Shown one piece after another: positions 4,809-32,281 of a DNA stretch of 32,281 bases. The stretch's first letter is position 1; each line of letters begins with the position of its first letter. A program made the translations under genes and the position numbers. The DNA comes from Spirochaetota bacterium (GTDB lineage: Bacteria > Spirochaetota > Spirochaetia > B11-G9), in contig JAJRQE010000095.1 in assembly GCA_024280415.1 (NCBI GenBank), positions 1-32,281 on the forward strand, in the 5' to 3' direction. The notes under the pieces are model-generated. The model was not told the DNA's origin, searched no databases, and saw nothing but the letters and a program-made list of their open reading frames with translations.

Positions 4809-5197
4809 TGGGAAAACATGATGACAGGTTTGAATACCTTTTTAACAATCTGGTGGATGATGTAAAAGCACTCAGAGATGCCTTTGAAAAACAGGAAGTG
4901 GGTATCGAAGGGTATGAAGTTATCCGGTCAAAAGCCAGAGATATTGCTGAGGTAACTCATCGACTAATTATCAAATGTGATCTTGTTATTGCAGGGTGTG
5001 AGATAAGTTTGTTCCAGCGCAAAGAAGGGGATCATATCTGTTTTTCCACTGATGCCACATCGAGGCTGTATGATGTTAAGAGGTGTAACGATATTGGCCA
5101 GCTAAAATATACATTAAGTACTCCTGGCCTCCAGCAAACTGTAAAGAAAGCAATTTTATCCAGGATCAAGAAACTGGAGAGGTGTCCAGGGAAATGA
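4808..5197 (+). CDS. hypothetical early protein
   Basis: A 129-aa protein, mainly helical in the first 60 residues (FEYLFNNLVDDVKALRDAF) and with three cysteines in the middle and C-terminal parts that do not form an obvious zinc motif. Start and stop overlap neighbouring genes (TAATG and ATGA), so it is translated as part of the operon. I do not recognise it. Confidence 0.6.
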   Translation: MGKHDDRFEYLFNNLVDDVKALRDAFEKQEVGIEGYEVIRSKARDIAEVTHRLIIKCDLVIAGCEISLFQRKEGDHICFSTDATSRLYDVKRCNDIGQLKYTLSTPGLQQTVKKAILSRIKKLERCPGK

Positions 5198-5490
5198 AAA
5201 TATACATATCAAGCAAGATAACAGGAAATGACAATTATGTATGGGATTTTGAAAGAGTAGAAAAACGTCTTATTGCAGAAGGCCATGAAGTAATAAACCC
5301 TTGCGAACTCCCTCATGAACATGAGGATGCTTATGAAGAGTATATGAAAGAAGATATACAGGCTCTCCTAGAGTGTGACCGGATATACATGTTTGGAGAG
5401 TGGTTTAAATCTGAAGGTGCGGTAATGGAGCGTGCAGTAGCTCGGATCTGTGGTATTCAGTGTATGTATGAAAGAAGGGAGAATATATGA
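5194..5490 (+). CDS. DUF4406 family protein (nucleoside deoxyribosyltransferase-like)
   Basis: This 98-aa protein starts MKIYISSKITG, the first strand and loop of the DUF4406/nucleoside 2-deoxyribosyltransferase-like Rossmann fold. It continues with GHEVINPCELP, YMKEDIQALLECDRIYMFGEW and SEGAVMERAVA, matching the order of family motifs: NP loop, catalytic-region D, and SxGAxxE. Family members are common in phages, and related enzymes cleave N-glycosidic bonds of nucleosides. I chose ATG 5194 because it gives the family's usual N-terminus and a 4-nt ATGA overlap; GTG 5182 is an alternative. The actual substrate is unknown. Confidence 0.75.
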   Translation: MKIYISSKITGNDNYVWDFERVEKRLIAEGHEVINPCELPHEHEDAYEEYMKEDIQALLECDRIYMFGEWFKSEGAVMERAVARICGIQCMYERRENI

Positions 5491-5654
5491 AAAAGGTATT
5501 TGTAATAGAAAACGCAGACAAACCAGAAAGAATGGAACTCTTAAAAAATACATCCGGGGAAACAGTCTTCTTTGGCTCCAAAGAAGAAGCCAGGGGAAAG
5601 GTGTTATTTATGGATGCAATACAACCGGTTCAGTTTATACAGGTGAAGCTATAG
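5487..5654 (+). CDS. small hypothetical protein
   Basis: A 55-aa protein (MKKVFVIENADKPERM...QFIQVKL) in a different frame from the long open frame around it. It has AGAAGGGAGA upstream of ATG 5487, a 4-nt overlap with the DUF4406 gene and a 1-nt overlap with the methyltransferase start. These joins make it a better candidate than the N-terminal extension of the methyltransferase frame over the same bases. No family recognised. Confidence 0.6.
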   Translation: MKKVFVIENADKPERMELLKNTSGETVFFGSKEEARGKVLFMDAIQPVQFIQVKL

Positions 5655-6487
5655 TGAAACCAGCTCTTGTTTACTATGGAGGGAAACAAACAATGCTTAA
5701 TTATATCATGCCTCTGCTCCCGGAACACGGCTGCTATGTAGAACCTTTCTGTGGCGGTGCCACTGTTTTCTTTGCTAAAAAAAAGAGTTCGGTTGAAGTT
5801 TTAAACGATACAAACGATAATCTTATCAATTTTTACAGGATCCTGCATGATTCAAAAAAAAGTCAGATGCTTCTGGAATTGTGCAAGGGAACACTTTATT
5901 CCAGATCTGAGTACAATAGAGCTATTGAGCTGTTTAAATCCGGATCTGAGGTAGAGAAAGCTTGGGCTCTCTGGTTTAAAATCAATGCTGGTTTTTCCGG
6001 GAAGCTGAATGGTGGGTTTAGTGTTACTAAAATTCCTGGAAGCTCTCCAAGTATAAAATTTAACAATTATAAAAAGAATATGTTCCAAATTTCTGACGGG
6101 TTACAAAATGTTCAGATAGAGAATAAAGATGCAATTGAGTGTATTGATTCTTATGACAGGGAAACCTCCTTTTTCTATATAGATCCTCCGTATCTGGAAG
6201 CGGATCAGGGACACTACAAGGGGTACAAACCAGAGGATTTTAAAAAACTATTGAATAAACTCACCACTATTAAAGGGAAATTCCTTTTATCCTGTTATCC
6301 CGGGAGAATGATCAAGGATTTTGTAGCTATAAATGACTGGAGTTTCTTTGCAATTCAGCAACGAATAAGAGCCAGAAACCAGAACCATAACAAAAAGAAC
6401 TGCAAAAAATTTAAAACAGAAATGCTGGTCTGGAATTATGACAAAATACTGATTCATCAAAATGAATTATTTGAGGAAGCAATATGA
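5654..6487 (+). CDS. dam: DNA adenine methyltransferase (Dam, D12 class)
   Basis: This 277-aa protein has the full set of motifs of D12-class N6-adenine methyltransferases: an N-terminal YYGGKQTMLNYI (substrate/SAM loop), motif I VEPFCGGATVFF (residues about 29-40), and catalytic motif IV DPPY at 177-180. It transfers a methyl group from S-adenosylmethionine to adenine, probably in GATC. The likely start is GTG 5654, overlapping the previous TAG. The open frame extends upstream to 5450, but that part lacks family similarity and covers another gene. A phage Dam may protect against host restriction or mark its own DNA; GATC specificity is inferred from class only. Confidence 0.9.
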   Translation: MKPALVYYGGKQTMLNYIMPLLPEHGCYVEPFCGGATVFFAKKKSSVEVLNDTNDNLINFYRILHDSKKSQMLLELCKGTLYSRSEYNRAIELFKSGSEVEKAWALWFKINAGFSGKLNGGFSVTKIPGSSPSIKFNNYKKNMFQISDGLQNVQIENKDAIECIDSYDRETSFFYIDPPYLEADQGHYKGYKPEDFKKLLNKLTTIKGKFLLSCYPGRMIKDFVAINDWSFFAIQQRIRARNQNHNKKNCKKFKTEMLVWNYDKILIHQNELFEEAI

Positions 6488-6633: not shown

Positions 6634-6770
6634 AATGTCTGAAATGTGGAATAACTAAAGAAGTTGGAATATTGGAGGAGATTGTGTCAGAATGTCTGTC
6701 GTTTAGAGAAATTTCACCAATAATACATGAGATGTATAAAGACATATCTTCTGCTAAAGAGGCAGTATGA
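6561..6770 (+). CDS. small zinc-ribbon protein
   Basis: A 69-aa protein with two cysteine pairs, CIC near residues 4-6 and CLKC near 26-29, forming a probable zinc ribbon, followed by a helical C-terminus. ATG 6561 has GGAGG just upstream. Small phage zinc-ribbon proteins often restore nucleic-acid or protein contacts, but no specific role can be named. The stop overlaps the DUF5662 gene by 4 nt. Confidence 0.6.
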   Translation: MQKCICGSEQKISTDPFNSDSIYLECLKCGITKEVGILEEIVSECLSFREISPIIHEMYKDISSAKEAV

Positions 6771-7315
6771 AATATAACAGTGCTAACGAAACAAGAAAAC
6801 ATATAAGAAGAGTAAGAGGCTACCTCCTAATGATTGAAGCCGACCTTGAGACTCGTGGTTATATTCATGACAGATCAAAACTACAGAAGCCGGAAAAACC
6901 CATATTTGATGAGTTTACCCCTAAGTTGAAGGGTTGTACGTACGGATCAGAAGAATACAAGGGGTTTCTCAAAGGGATGGGTGTTGCTTTAGAACACCAT
7001 TACAAAAACAACCGGCACCATCCGGAACACTTTATTTACTATGAATGTAATGGATGCTTTAAAAGATTCTACGAAGAACCGAAGGTTTGTGATGTATGTG
7101 GTTATACTCAGTTTCAAATCAGATCCGATATCACTCAAATGAATCTCATCGATCTTATTGAAATGTTAATGGACTGGAAAGCAGCAACCCTCCGACATGC
7201 TGATGGAGACATTTTGAGGTCGATAGAATTGAACCAGAAGAGATTTGAATACTCTGATGAGCTTAAGAAGATATTTCTTAATACTATTGAGTATTTGGAA
7301 CTGGGAAGGAGGTAA
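6767..7315 (+). CDS. DUF5662-like protein with an inserted zinc ribbon
   Basis: This 182-aa protein matches the DUF5662 pattern found in phages and some bacteria: IHDRSKL at 33-39 (His-Asp pair), ALEHHYKNNRHHPEHF at 74-89, LIDLIEMLMDWKAA at 127-140 and RHADGD near 143-148. The many conserved His/Asp residues look like an HD-type metal centre; the activity is not established. Between the HHPEHF motif and the C-terminal helices there is an insert with C94/C97 and C108/C111, a zinc ribbon not usual in the family as I remember it. The gene is coupled to the preceding zinc-ribbon gene by a 4-nt overlap. Confidence 0.7.
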   Translation: MKYNSANETRKHIRRVRGYLLMIEADLETRGYIHDRSKLQKPEKPIFDEFTPKLKGCTYGSEEYKGFLKGMGVALEHHYKNNRHHPEHFIYYECNGCFKRFYEEPKVCDVCGYTQFQIRSDITQMNLIDLIEMLMDWKAATLRHADGDILRSIELNQKRFEYSDELKKIFLNTIEYLELGRR

Positions 7316-7528
7316 ATGAACCACAGTGATTGCAAGTATTATTACCGTACTGAGTGCGAAAAAACGGCAATAGTATATGAGAGCCTACTTAAGAAAGAGA
7401 TTGAGAAAACAATAACGGAAGTAAAACCGTGTTGTGGGATAGATCCAGTAGCGGTCATCCTTGATAAAGAGCAGCTGGTATGCCAGTTGTTTCAAACACA
7501 AATAGTCTATGGAGGACAATATGAGTAG
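7316..7528 (+). CDS. small cysteine-containing hypothetical protein
   Basis: A 70-aa protein with Cys at 6, 14, 39, 40 and 56, which could bind metal. ATG 7316 directly follows the previous TAA with GGAAGGAGG as a strong ribosome site. The end overlaps the Acb2/Tad1-like gene by 8 nt, suggesting co-translation and perhaps a related job. No family recognised. Confidence 0.55.
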   Translation: MNHSDCKYYYRTECEKTAIVYESLLKKEIEKTITEVKPCCGIDPVAVILDKEQLVCQLFQTQIVYGGQYE

Positions 7529-7886
7529 ATCATTAACAATCGGAACAAGAAGATTCACAGAAGTACTGGCAAATGACAAACCAGGACCAGGTGGAGCAAA
7601 TCATGAGTATTTGGTTGTGTCTCATTCAGAGGGAGATGAGGGTAGTCAGATTTTCACCACAGTAAAATTTCAGAAGGGTCCAGTTAAAGAAACCGGGATA
7701 AATGGGATCCACAATGAAGACCTTATTGCTATCGTAGTAGATCGTCTGAGGGGATTTCAATCTGGGGAGTTTGCCTGCAGGGAGAATGCACTTGCTCTAA
7801 CGAAACTTGAGGAAACTCTTCATTGGCTCAATCACCGTACAAATGAACGGATAGGAAGAGGCGTTGAGGGGACAAATCAGATATAG
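7521..7886 (+). CDS. Acb2/Tad1-type hairpin-domain protein (putative cyclic-nucleotide sponge)
   Basis: This 121-aa protein closely resembles phage proteins now grouped with the Acb2/Tad1 hairpin domain. Characteristic segments are GPGGANHEYLV (residues 21-31), a strand FTTVKFQKGPVKE, and the helical hairpin from about 62 to 118 with LIAIVVDRLRGFQ, ACRENALALTKLEETLHWL and RIGRGVEGTN. Acb2 binds cyclic di- and trinucleotide signals of CBASS; Tad1 binds the Thoeris signal. Both disarm host defence by sequestering the messenger. I prefer ATG 7521 with GGAGG at 7511-7515 over the upstream ATG at 7509. The gene is last before a terminator, at the early/late boundary. The family call is from recalled sequence patterns; ligand binding is inference. 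Confidence 0.75.
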   Translation: MSRSLTIGTRRFTEVLANDKPGPGGANHEYLVVSHSEGDEGSQIFTTVKFQKGPVKETGINGIHNEDLIAIVVDRLRGFQSGEFACRENALALTKLEETLHWLNHRTNERIGRGVEGTNQI

Positions 7887-7907: not shown

Positions 7908-7937
7908 GGCTGGTGGTACCTCTACCAGCCGCTTTTT
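7908..7937 (+). terminator. intrinsic terminator at the early/late boundary
   Basis: Arms GGCTGGT (7908-7914) and ACCAGCC (7924-7930) pair perfectly over 7 bp with a 9-nt loop, followed by GCTTTTT. The T-run merges into the AAGGAGG ribosome site of the next gene, so late transcription must read through it or start inside a very short space. Confidence 0.75.
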
Positions 7938-7948
7938 AAGGAGGAACC

Positions 7949-8152
7949 ATGCAAACAAAAATGATGGATGGTCTAGTTGGGGCGGTAGAAGAATTTGATC
8001 TTGAGAAGATGATTTTACAGATTACAAACCCTGAAGTAAAAAAGGTTGAAGTATTTGAAAGAGATTCTATTGCTGATATGGAAGCAAAGAAAGCCTGGGC
8101 AGGAATGAACAGACGGCAGCGTAGGGATATTAAGAAGAAGTTAAGAAGATAA
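7949..8152 (+). CDS. small basic hypothetical protein
   Basis: A 67-aa protein: an acidic N-terminal half and a strongly basic C-terminus (NRRQRRDIKKKLRR) suited to nucleic acid contact. AAGGAGG lies 6 nt before ATG 7949. It is the first gene after the terminator and directly precedes the terminase genes, so a packaging-related role is possible but unproven. The RRQRRxxKKxxR tail recurs in small phage proteins; no named family recognised. Confidence 0.6.
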   Translation: MQTKMMDGLVGAVEEFDLEKMILQITNPEVKKVEVFERDSIADMEAKKAWAGMNRRQRRDIKKKLRR

Positions 8153-8192: not shown

Positions 8193-8693
8193 ATGAATAA
8201 TGCTATAAAATATAAATCAAAATATCATCCAGCAAAGATAGAGGAGTTTGCACGATCCGGTTATACAGTGAGACAAATCTGTAAAAAGCTCAATATTTCC
8301 CCCGAAACTTTCTATAAATGGAAGAGAGAAAAGGTTGACGTATCTGACGCTTTTGAGAGGGGGCGTAAGGTTCTTTCAGATTCCCTGGTTCCCCATCTAA
8401 GAAAGAGGGCAAAAGGATTTTCATATACAAAAACAACAAAAGAAATGCAATTTACCAAAGATGAAGAAGGAAACGAAACAAGGGAGATGGTTATTGTTAA
8501 AAAAGTTAAGAAACAATATCCTCCTGATGTATCTGCACTGAAGTTCTTTCTTAACAATAGGCTGCCTGATGAATGGCAGGAAAGATCAACAATTGAACAT
8601 GATGTACCAGAAGATTCCGGAATTATTATACTTTCAGGGAAGATATCGGTGGATGAATGGCAGAAAAAACAACAGCAGCCAAAAAAACAATAA
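8193..8693 (+). CDS. terminase small subunit
   Basis: This 166-aa protein has an N-terminal helix-turn-helix (SGYTVRQICKKLNISPETFYK, split here as residues about 24-44), followed by a family-typical region with SDSLVPHLRKRAKGFSY and the C-terminal signature PPDVSALKFFLNNRLPDEWQ (residues about 110-129). Small terminases recognise the packaging site and regulate the large subunit. Its gene overlaps the large terminase start by 37 nt, and order and length are normal. Family membership is clear from the HTH plus the PDxxAxxFxLxNRxPxxW pattern. Confidence 0.85.
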   Translation: MNNAIKYKSKYHPAKIEEFARSGYTVRQICKKLNISPETFYKWKREKVDVSDAFERGRKVLSDSLVPHLRKRAKGFSYTKTTKEMQFTKDEEGNETREMVIVKKVKKQYPPDVSALKFFLNNRLPDEWQERSTIEHDVPEDSGIIILSGKISVDEWQKKQQQPKKQ

Positions 8694-10054
8694 TCTGGAA
8701 ACCTCAGCCGAAACAAGAGCTTGCATTATCCTGCCCCGCAGATGAAGTTTTCTTTGGTGGAGCTGCTGGGGGTGGAAAGACAGATTATTTACTGGCAGAC
8801 TTCCTTGATGGAGTTGGTCATGGTCATGGACATAGAGGTGTTCTTTTCCGGAGATCATATCCTGAACTTGAAGAAGTAATAATCAGGTCTAAAGAATTAT
8901 TTTATCCTCTAGGTGCTACATATAAAGAGTATAAAAATATCTGGACATTCCCATCCGGATCAACCCTCAAATTCAGACAATTGGAAAGAGATAAAGATGT
9001 ACATAAATATCAAGGCCACGCTTATACCTGGATAGGATTTGATGAGCTTCCGAACTGGGCAACCGATTACTGTTACATTTATATGCGGTCAAGACTGAGA
9101 TCTGCAGAAGGATTGCCGTGCCGATTTAGGGCAACCGGAAACCCTGGATCGGTTGGGCATACATGGGTCAAGCTACGGTTTATAGATTTAAAAGATGCAA
9201 ATATAATATATCTGGATAAAGAAACAGAACTCACTCAGTGCTTTATTCCTTCCAGGCTGGAAGATAACCAGATATTGATGCAGAACGATCCTAAGTATGA
9301 GAAGAGGCTCCTTTCTCTTCCGAAACACTTACAGAAGGCTCTCCGATGGGGTGAATGGGATGTATTTGCAGGTCAGATCTTTGAGGAGTTTACACGGGAT
9401 ACACATACTATTGATCCAATCCCTCTGGATCCGGACTGGATACGTGTATGCTCAATGGACTGGGGATATTCAAAGCCGTTCTCTATAGGATGGTGGGCAA
9501 TTACTCCTGCAGGGAGAGCAATCCGTTACCGGGAATGGTATGGCTGTGTGGATGGTGAAATGAATACAGGATTGAAGCTCGGGGTAACAGAGGTTGCAAA
9601 GAGAGCGTGGGCTTTATCGGTAGTAGAAGGCTGTCACACTATGGTTGCAGATCCTGCATGCTGGAGTAAAATAGATGCAGAGAATCCTACTGTAGCTGAA
9701 AAATTTAAAGATGTTGGATGGGATATGGTTAAAGGTTTAAATAGTCGCTTTCTGGGGTTGGTTCAAGTGCATGATATGCTTAAACAGCTGGGAGAAGATG
9801 GCCGTCCAATGATGCTGATTTTTAAAAGCTGTCATGCATTTATTAGAACCATTCCAGGACTGGTAGCTGCAGAGAACCGTCCTGAAGATGTTGATACCAA
9901 TGGAGAGGATCATTGTTACGATGAAACCAGATATATGATGATGAGTGAGTATGTAAAGAATCCTGCTAAATTCCAGGATCTGAACAAGGTGTTTGCTCAG
10001 AAAGAAGGGAGGGAGCTTGAAGATTATGATCCACTCAGATACAACCTTGATTGA
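8657..10054 (+). CDS. terminase large subunit (packaging ATPase/nuclease)
   Basis: This 465-aa protein has both catalytic halves. The ATPase part shows Walker A FFGGAAGGGKT at about 32-42 and Walker B TWIGFDE at 124-130. The RNase H-like nuclease part shows D268 in CSMDWGYSKP, D332 in MVADPACW and D422 in DHCYDETRYM. It cuts concatemeric DNA and pumps it through the portal. Length is typical. The ATG at 8657 lies inside the small subunit gene in another frame. No insertion or damage is visible. Confidence 0.93.
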   Translation: MAEKTTAAKKTIIWKPQPKQELALSCPADEVFFGGAAGGGKTDYLLADFLDGVGHGHGHRGVLFRRSYPELEEVIIRSKELFYPLGATYKEYKNIWTFPSGSTLKFRQLERDKDVHKYQGHAYTWIGFDELPNWATDYCYIYMRSRLRSAEGLPCRFRATGNPGSVGHTWVKLRFIDLKDANIIYLDKETELTQCFIPSRLEDNQILMQNDPKYEKRLLSLPKHLQKALRWGEWDVFAGQIFEEFTRDTHTIDPIPLDPDWIRVCSMDWGYSKPFSIGWWAITPAGRAIRYREWYGCVDGEMNTGLKLGVTEVAKRAWALSVVEGCHTMVADPACWSKIDAENPTVAEKFKDVGWDMVKGLNSRFLGLVQVHDMLKQLGEDGRPMMLIFKSCHAFIRTIPGLVAAENRPEDVDTNGEDHCYDETRYMMMSEYVKNPAKFQDLNKVFAQKEGRELEDYDPLRYNLD

Positions 10055-30998: not shown

Positions 30999-31799
30999 TC
31001 ATTTAATGTTAAAAAGTTCCTCCTGGGCATCTACAATTTCCTGATAATGCGATAGTTCAAAATGTGTGTAATGATCAATCATTCGCTGAGTTTGATGGCC
31101 AGTAACAGCCTGAACTTTTGAGTCTGCAATATTCATCCCTCTCATATATGTATTAAAAAAGTGTCTCCAGGAATGAAATGTAATATTCCTGTCCTTCCTA
31201 TTATTTTCTGTAATTTTAATTTTCCGTAATGCTGAATATAAATTATCAGTAACATCACGGGAGGTATATGGAACAAGCCCCTGATGTAGCGAGAAGAAGT
31301 ATCCATCAGGATCATCACCTTTTATCATCTCCATGTATTTTGAAACTGTCGACGGGATGGGGATATACCTGGATCGCTTTGTTTTTGTATCTTTAAGTCC
31401 TTTTGTAATTTGACCATAAGCCTGTACTATTTCAACATGATCTTTGTAAACATATTTATTCAGTAATCCCAGGGATTCTCCTTTTCTGATTCCGGTTGCT
31501 GCAGAGAATAGATTTAGAGTATATGAGATAAGATCGTTGTTCCAAATATACAGAATTTGATTTGGATCAAATAATAGCCTAACTTCGTCCAGAGTTAAGA
31601 TTCCTCTTTCTTTAGTTTTAGCTTGTAGTTGTCGAATTCCCAATGCTGGATTGTTATGAATATGCCCCTGATCATATGCGAATCTCATGATAACCTTTAG
31701 GTTTCTAAGAAGATGATTAATTGTACTATCGGACACCCTCCCTTTTAATGATAAAATCCAATTTTCTACGTGATGGGATTTTATGGCAGATAGATTCAT
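30999..31799 (-). CDS. int: tyrosine integrase, C-terminal part (core-binding and catalytic domains)
   Basis: This 266-aa fragment contains most of the core-binding domain and the entire catalytic domain of a phage tyrosine recombinase. Active-site residues are R105 in ATGIRKGE, a Lys in TKTKRSRYIP, H209-x2-R212 in FHSWRH, H235 in TGHQ and the nucleophile Y244 in DHYTHF. It would integrate and excise the phage at the adjoining tRNA gene. The frame continues upstream without shift through an in-frame TAA (31815-31817) into the N-terminal domain, so ATG 31799 is an internal Met rather than the original start. Unless the stop is read through or translation restarts, the enzyme lacks its arm-binding domain. 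Confidence 0.88.
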   Translation of the reverse strand: MNLSAIKSHHVENWILSLKGRVSDSTINHLLRNLKVIMRFAYDQGHIHNNPALGIRQLQAKTKERGILTLDEVRLLFDPNQILYIWNNDLISYTLNLFSAATGIRKGESLGLLNKYVYKDHVEIVQAYGQITKGLKDTKTKRSRYIPIPSTVSKYMEMIKGDDPDGYFFSLHQGLVPYTSRDVTDNLYSALRKIKITENNRKDRNITFHSWRHFFNTYMRGMNIADSKVQAVTGHQTQRMIDHYTHFELSHYQEIVDAQEELFNIK

Positions 31800-31814
31800 T
31801 GTTTTAAAGTAGGG

Positions 31815-32147
31815 TTAGATATGGTTTTTAAGATACCCACGTTCAGTATTGCAGTGTTCCTTACTAATGGAGTTTTCCTTTCTGTTGTTTTTCATCTGCA
31901 CATATTTACACTTATCGAAGATCCAGAAATTCTCAGTAAAGTCTGCGAACCTCATATCTTTCTTGGGGATCAATTCTCCCTTTCTGATTAACTCAGCCAT
32001 ATAGTGTCTAAATGAGGCGAAAGTTGTACATCCGGTTGAAATGCCGCTAGTTCTTCTGTCCTCTTCGTCATAAGTTCGGTAGTAAAAGACAGTTTTTCCG
32101 GATTTTGTTTTTCTTTTGTAATAGGAATATGGTTCTTTGTAGCGCAT
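31815..32147 (-). pseudogene. int: tyrosine integrase, N-terminal part ended by in-frame stop
   Basis: The 110-codon fragment carries the arm-type DNA-binding strand region (YSYYKRKTKSGKTVFYYRTY) and the beginning of the core-binding domain. ATG 32147 has AGAGG upstream and is preferred over an in-frame start at 32174. The stop is TAA directly after GYLKNHI, and the next codons read PYFKTMNLSAI in the same frame. In related integrases this segment usually reads like HILPYF, so a TTA Leu codon changed to TAA would explain it by one base. Together the parts make a 382-codon gene of normal integrase length. Confidence 0.75.
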
Positions 32148-32202
32148 AGTAACCTCTTTATTCTGGCTACACAACAGGTGACATCAATTTATGATATCCA
32201 AC

Positions 32203-32239: not shown

Positions 32240-32281
32240 TACGTCCAACAGGATTCGAACCTGTGACCTACGGCTTAGAAG
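32240..32281 (-). tRNA. 3' half of tRNA-Arg (anticodon TCT), presumed attachment site; cut by the window end
   Basis: On the minus strand one reads the anticodon loop CTTCTAA, the 3' stem strand GCCGT, a variable loop, the T arm ACAGG-TTCGAAT-CCTGT, the acceptor strand TGGACGT and discriminator A at 32240. The 5' half lies beyond the window. The tRNA's 3' end faces the integrase, which is the classical arrangement for phages that integrate into tRNA 3' ends. No second copy of this segment is present near position 1, so the other att site must lie to the left of the window. Confidence 0.85.

Follow-up and report, generated by a model that had tools for sequence, protein, structure and literature searches.

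A Tad1-family gene beside the terminase genes of a spirochaete prophage, and CBASS as its probable counterpart in the host

The Tad1 family owes its name to the Thoeris defence. Acb2 (anti-CBASS 2) is built from a short N-terminal helix and two antiparallel helices and has no beta sheet. It is reported to bind CBASS di- and trinucleotides (PMC12043709), and the protein described here has the helical hairpin domain and, presumably, the sponge strategy in common with it. In Tad1, the pocket for gcADPR and dinucleotides is formed by four conserved loops and the C-terminal tail of one protomer together with the two helices of the other, and the trinucleotide site is separate and lies at the trimer interfaces (PMC12043709). 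The ligands reported for Tad1 comprise 3',2'-cGAMP, 2',3'-cGAMP, cA3 and cAAG, both CapV and NucC were found to be blocked, and gcADPR binding was described as conserved among Tad1 homologues (PMC12043709). Structures have been solved for CbTad1 from a Clostridium botulinum prophage (7uav, 7uaw, 8smd, 8kbe and 8kbf) and for CmTad1 (8kbb, apo; 8kbc, with cAAA; 8kbd, with cAAG).

The DNA analysed here, referred to as the window, is a stretch of 32,281 nucleotides that makes up one whole contig (C112) of a draft genome of a Spirochaetota bacterium (3.9 Mb, 338 contigs, 97.7% complete). This genome also encodes a FlaA flagellar sheath protein, which is typical of spirochaetes. A preliminary description of the window had proposed a cyclic-nucleotide sponge of the Acb2/Tad1 type, encoded in a prophage early operon by an open reading frame of 121 codons with the segments GPGGANHEY, FQKGPVKE, RENALALTKLEE and GRGVEGT. 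This reading frame and all four segments were confirmed in the sequence, and the gene is called tad1 in the following. Its surroundings, and the CBASS loci found elsewhere in the genome, are listed in Table 1.

Table 1. Features around tad1 in the window and CBASS loci on other contigs of the host draft genome.
Feature	Position or contig	Strand	Description
Gene for DUF5662 protein, upstream of tad1	6767-7315	+	PF18907, E 3e-33
70-aa Cys-containing ORF	7316-7528	+	Own GGAGG at 7308-7312; overlaps tad1 by 8 nt
Shine-Dalgarno sequence GGAGG of tad1	7511-7515	+	Within the 3' end of the 70-aa ORF; read from the sequence
tad1	7521-7886 (including stop)	+	121 aa; putative Tad1-family cyclic-nucleotide sponge
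Terminator-like hairpin	7908-7930	+	9-pair stem, then CTTTTT; right after tad1
Small gene between hairpin and terS	7949-8152
terS	8193-8693	+	PHROG 309 terminase small subunit, E 6.8e-39
terL	8657-10054	+	54% identical to a Rhodobacteraceae phage terminase
CBASS locus	G000:C283 (L067)		CapV-like patatin phospholipase adjoining a CD-NTase with AGS_C domain
CBASS locus	G000:C206 (L065)		CdnG/Cap5-like operon: HNH-SAVED (PDLC01997, E 5e-128), cyclase (PDLC00780, E 1e-120), E2 (PDLC00859, E 2e-63)
CBASS locus	G000:C254 (L066)		Broken: truncated CD-NTase; HNH-SAVED split in two frames

The start of tad1 is the ATG at 7521. An alternative in-frame ATG lies 12 nt upstream at 7509, but the spacing of the Shine-Dalgarno sequence suits the ATG at 7521, which is therefore the better start. 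The codon usage of tad1 matches that of other phage genes in the annotated frame only. The hairpin that follows the gene has a fold energy of -19 kcal/mol (z -1.9) and is likely where the transcription unit in front of it ends. Since the terminase genes lie downstream, tad1 sits in a phage genome. For the idea of an early operon, gene order could be checked: tad1 is the last gene of a same-strand run on the forward strand, just upstream of terS and terL and with the hairpin behind it. Its early timing is presumed. The same gene run contains, at 5182-5490, a gene for a DUF4406 or nucleoside 2-deoxyribosyltransferase-like protein.

Comparisons of the 121-aa protein with all PDB chains by phmmer returned Tad1 proteins, one more distant protein, gp184, and nothing else. 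The best match was CmTad1 (8kbb, E 9.2e-28, residues 8-121 against chain residues 18-132), with 53 of 115 residues identical (46%). The match to CbTad1 (7uav, E 1.3e-26) covered residues 19-119, with 51 identities in 103 residues (50%). The Tad1 of Bacillus phage SBSphiJ7 (OM982674) was 64.5% identical over residues 45-120, the N-terminal part lying outside this match. A profile search, as proposed in the preliminary description, placed residues 8-120 in PHROG 2428 (E 2.5e-37). The Pfam model Acb2_Tad1_hairpin (PF24729) gave only a partial match of 23.2 bits (E 7.8e-5), which is below its curated cut-off of 27 bits, so that the protein is not assigned to this Pfam family; pipelines that apply Pfam cut-offs would therefore miss tad1. 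It is the full-length Tad1 comparisons and not the PF24729 score that decide the family of this protein. Neither PADLOC nor NCBIfam held a model for it. Relatives of tad1 were found by tblastn in 151 phage records, and further related loci were present in IMG/VR (33) and in the GTDB genome set (7). Judged by the PHROG, PDB and phage-record matches, tad1 is no chance reading frame.

The predicted fold points in the same direction. An AlphaFold2 monomer model, built on a 31-sequence alignment, reached a pLDDT of 92.7 and a pTM of 0.80. It consists of an antiparallel N-terminal sheet (residues 13-50, with strands 13-17, 29-34 and 43-50), the helical hairpin on which the earlier proposal had hinged (helices 65-81 and 87-113) and a C-terminal tail. 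When this model was compared with the PDB by Foldseek, ranks 1-20 were all taken by Tad1 chains, some of them with gcADPR, cAAA or cAAG bound, and the top match was 7uaw_A, Tad1 with 1''-2' gcADPR (TM 0.90). The E-values of the Tad1 chains extended to 2e-9 and that of the next match was 0.8, so nothing else was significant. Profile, sequence and predicted-fold comparisons thus agree, and they sharpen the Acb2/Tad1-type proposal to a full-length Tad1. The 121-aa protein is almost certainly a Tad1 homologue. The reading of tad1 as a prophage counter-defence gene is supported as well.

Residues conserved in the family are retained. In the 31-sequence alignment, the protein keeps the C-terminal tail RGVEGTN as well as the loops GPGGANHEY, FQKGPVKE and NGIHNED, and Y30, Q51, G53, G62, L68, N89 and R106, which are invariant across the 31 Tad1 proteins, are all present. 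The counterparts of F79 and N89 in CbTad1 are F82 and N92 (the PDB chain numbering is one higher), which we take to be pocket residues. It is highly likely that the protein would bind at least one of gcADPR and the CBASS cyclic nucleotides.

No Tad1 was found in 97 other genomes of the class, and there is therefore no vertical history to trace. In the Tad1 tree, the window protein lies close to CmTad1 and apart from the branch of the clostridial CbTad1, a placement with moderate support in which CmTad1 sits on a long branch. Compared with CbTad1, the window protein has the same full-length fold and the same loops and is likewise prophage-borne, but it occurs in another host phylum and on another branch of the tree, and its host has CBASS and no detected Thoeris. 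The closest phage relatives by terL (L045-L048, 50-51% identity) showed no Tad1 within 2.7-6 kb upstream of that gene, and tad1 therefore looks accessory here. Two distant phages bear a divergent Tad1 relative directly upstream of terL (L057, 2145-2495; L058, 1332-1700). This suggests that the placement near the terminase genes is conserved, although the cases are too few to claim it. On one viral contig (L006), two Tad1-like reading frames lie in tandem (5001-5357 and 5361-5717); the second is without the FQKGPVKE loop and is perhaps a diverged copy.

A CD-NTase search of the host genome, with identification by PADLOC and Pfam, revealed three CBASS loci (C283, C206 and C254). The C206 operon is of the CdnG-Cap5 type, having a CD-NTase beside an HNH-SAVED effector and an accessory gene. 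Its CD-NTase resembles a solved cyclic GMP-AMP synthase (9woo) over nearly the full length (E 3e-118) and also CdnG. LlCap5 reads 3',2'-cGAMP with R234, S274 and R281 (PMC8568899), and the alignment shows that the HNH-SAVED protein of C206 keeps the equivalents of these residues. The CapV-like protein of C283 closely resembles CBASS phospholipases of known structure. Elsewhere in the class CD-NTases are rare, with a match in only 4 of 58 relatives. Directly ahead of the first gene, a segment of about 220 bp with 80% identity is common to the C206 and C283 operons (L065, 4723-4941; L067, 4638-4856); it is perhaps regulatory or transferred. Searches for ThsB_TIR and TIR_2 gave no match in the host genome and did give matches in control genomes. 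The STALD (ThsA) profile also had no match in the host, but it matched no control genome either and hence says little about an absence of ThsA. In tetranucleotide use, the CBASS contigs and the window lie near the remaining contigs in the bin, with correlations of 0.92-0.97, values with which misbinning may still be compatible. The CBASS loci are located on small contigs of the 338-contig draft, and all of them may be derived from mobile elements or misbinned.

Tad1 would be made in quantity after induction or during infection. By homology, it would assemble as a hexamer of three dimers, in which six pockets take gcADPR or cyclic dinucleotides and two sites at the trimer interfaces take cyclic trinucleotides. 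It would then tightly bind the cyclic nucleotides with which the host raises the alarm upon phage detection, so that the signals are sequestered and the effectors stay off. Since such a sponge sequesters its ligands and does not degrade them, it must be in excess once the host launches its defence. Here, the sponge would act mainly on the cyclic dinucleotides of CBASS, for instance 3',2'-cGAMP, and possibly also on trinucleotides, with gcADPR binding kept. The dinucleotides would come from the CdnG-type cyclase, which supplies the Cap5 (HNH-SAVED) nuclease with its signal, and from the cyclase beside CapV, and the pressure in this host would be CBASS rather than Thoeris. CBASS is proposed as the main target because the host has three CBASS loci, no Thoeris TIR or STALD was detected in it, and CD-NTases are rare in the class. 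Taking homology, predicted fold, residues and host gene content together, we consider it very probable that the gene encodes a Tad1 sponge for which the pressure in the host most likely comes from CBASS. For CBASS as the main pressure in this particular host, taken by itself, we lean towards the affirmative with modest confidence.

The view that competes most seriously is that the true target is Thoeris, through gcADPR, in other hosts of the phage, and that the CBASS loci are present here by coincidence. The prophage may indeed meet other hosts too. Thoeris gave the family its name, and the top fold match is a complex with 1''-2' gcADPR; gcADPR binding by homologues is, moreover, reported as conserved (PMC12043709). 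Among the seven other genomes bearing Tad1, a CD-NTase was found in one and a ThsB-type TIR in a different one, that of Ruminococcus albus. In this small set there is therefore no general association of Tad1 with CBASS, and the link to CBASS is one case. What speaks against Thoeris as the target is the host genome itself, which is 97.7% complete and has no TIR or STALD match, yet carries three CBASS loci. We therefore regard the Thoeris view as doubtful, though a genuine contender. A more specific idea is that this branch of Tad1 has specialised in CBASS in place of Thoeris, being tuned to 3',2'-cGAMP from the CdnG-Cap5 system and to the dinucleotide of the CapV operon, with little or no activity on gcADPR. 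This we consider unlikely.

It is very unlikely that the protein has kept the Tad1 fold as a relic that lost its binding, or that it has another role in the phage, for example as a virion protein. Some relatives are labelled 'structural protein' or 'ABC transporter ATPase', but the second of these names is also attached to CbTad1, a Tad1 of solved structure, so that such labels have little weight. Some decay of the prophage is conceivable, as its integrase gene is interrupted. The tad1 reading frame, in contrast, is intact, is preceded by a ribosome-binding site, has phage-like codon usage and retains the residues conserved in the family. The integrase gene (30999-32174, reverse strand) consists of two pieces in the same frame, 32174-31815 and 31799-30999, with an in-frame stop between them, which may reflect a defective prophage or an assembly error. 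Beside it, the contig breaks off within an apparent tRNA gene, of which the 3' half would be present (32240-32281, reverse strand), a likely attachment site. The left end of the prophage carries, on the forward strand, a tRNA-Met gene and a second tRNA gene, at 527-599 and 732-830. The second was detected by Rfam only (41.5 bits) and not called by ARAGORN, and its middle part is unusually long.

The Cys-rich reading frame in front of tad1 had been suggested as a possible partner. Its 8-nt overlap with tad1 (7521-7528) was confirmed, and this overlap and the consecutive ribosome-binding sites are what would favour a two-gene counter-defence module. Short overlaps are, however, ordinary in phage operons, and the codon usage of the reading frame is not distinctive. 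No relatives of it were found in phages or IMG/VR viral contigs, at 40 Tad1 loci or in the PDB. The partner role was not borne out by these searches, and we rejected the reading frame as a conserved partner of Tad1; a two-gene module appears very improbable. A sub-threshold match to PF18671 (E 0.046) amounts to a faint likeness to the small subunit of 4-hydroxyphenylacetate decarboxylase, and a single-sequence model was unusable (pLDDT 55). The reading frame is probably an orphan that is translationally coupled to tad1 and no more. Lastly, an Acb2-type protein in place of a Tad1, for which the Pfam match to a hairpin common to Acb2 and Tad1 might be quoted, was rejected and is hardly conceivable, as the full-length Tad1 match covers the N-terminal beta sheet, this three-strand sheet is present in the model and absent from Acb2, and neither the PDB sequence search nor the significant hits of the fold search included an Acb2 chain.

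The mechanism is already established for the Tad1 family, and the value of the present case is its host context and not a new mechanism. To our knowledge, little is known about counter-defence in spirochaete prophages, and our findings add a Tad1 from such a prophage, in a genome with three CBASS loci. They also offer a concrete pairing, namely this Tad1 with the CdnG-Cap5 or the CapV system of its own host. If a Tad1 branch tuned to CBASS did turn out to be real, it would mean that the target has switched naturally inside a single sponge family.
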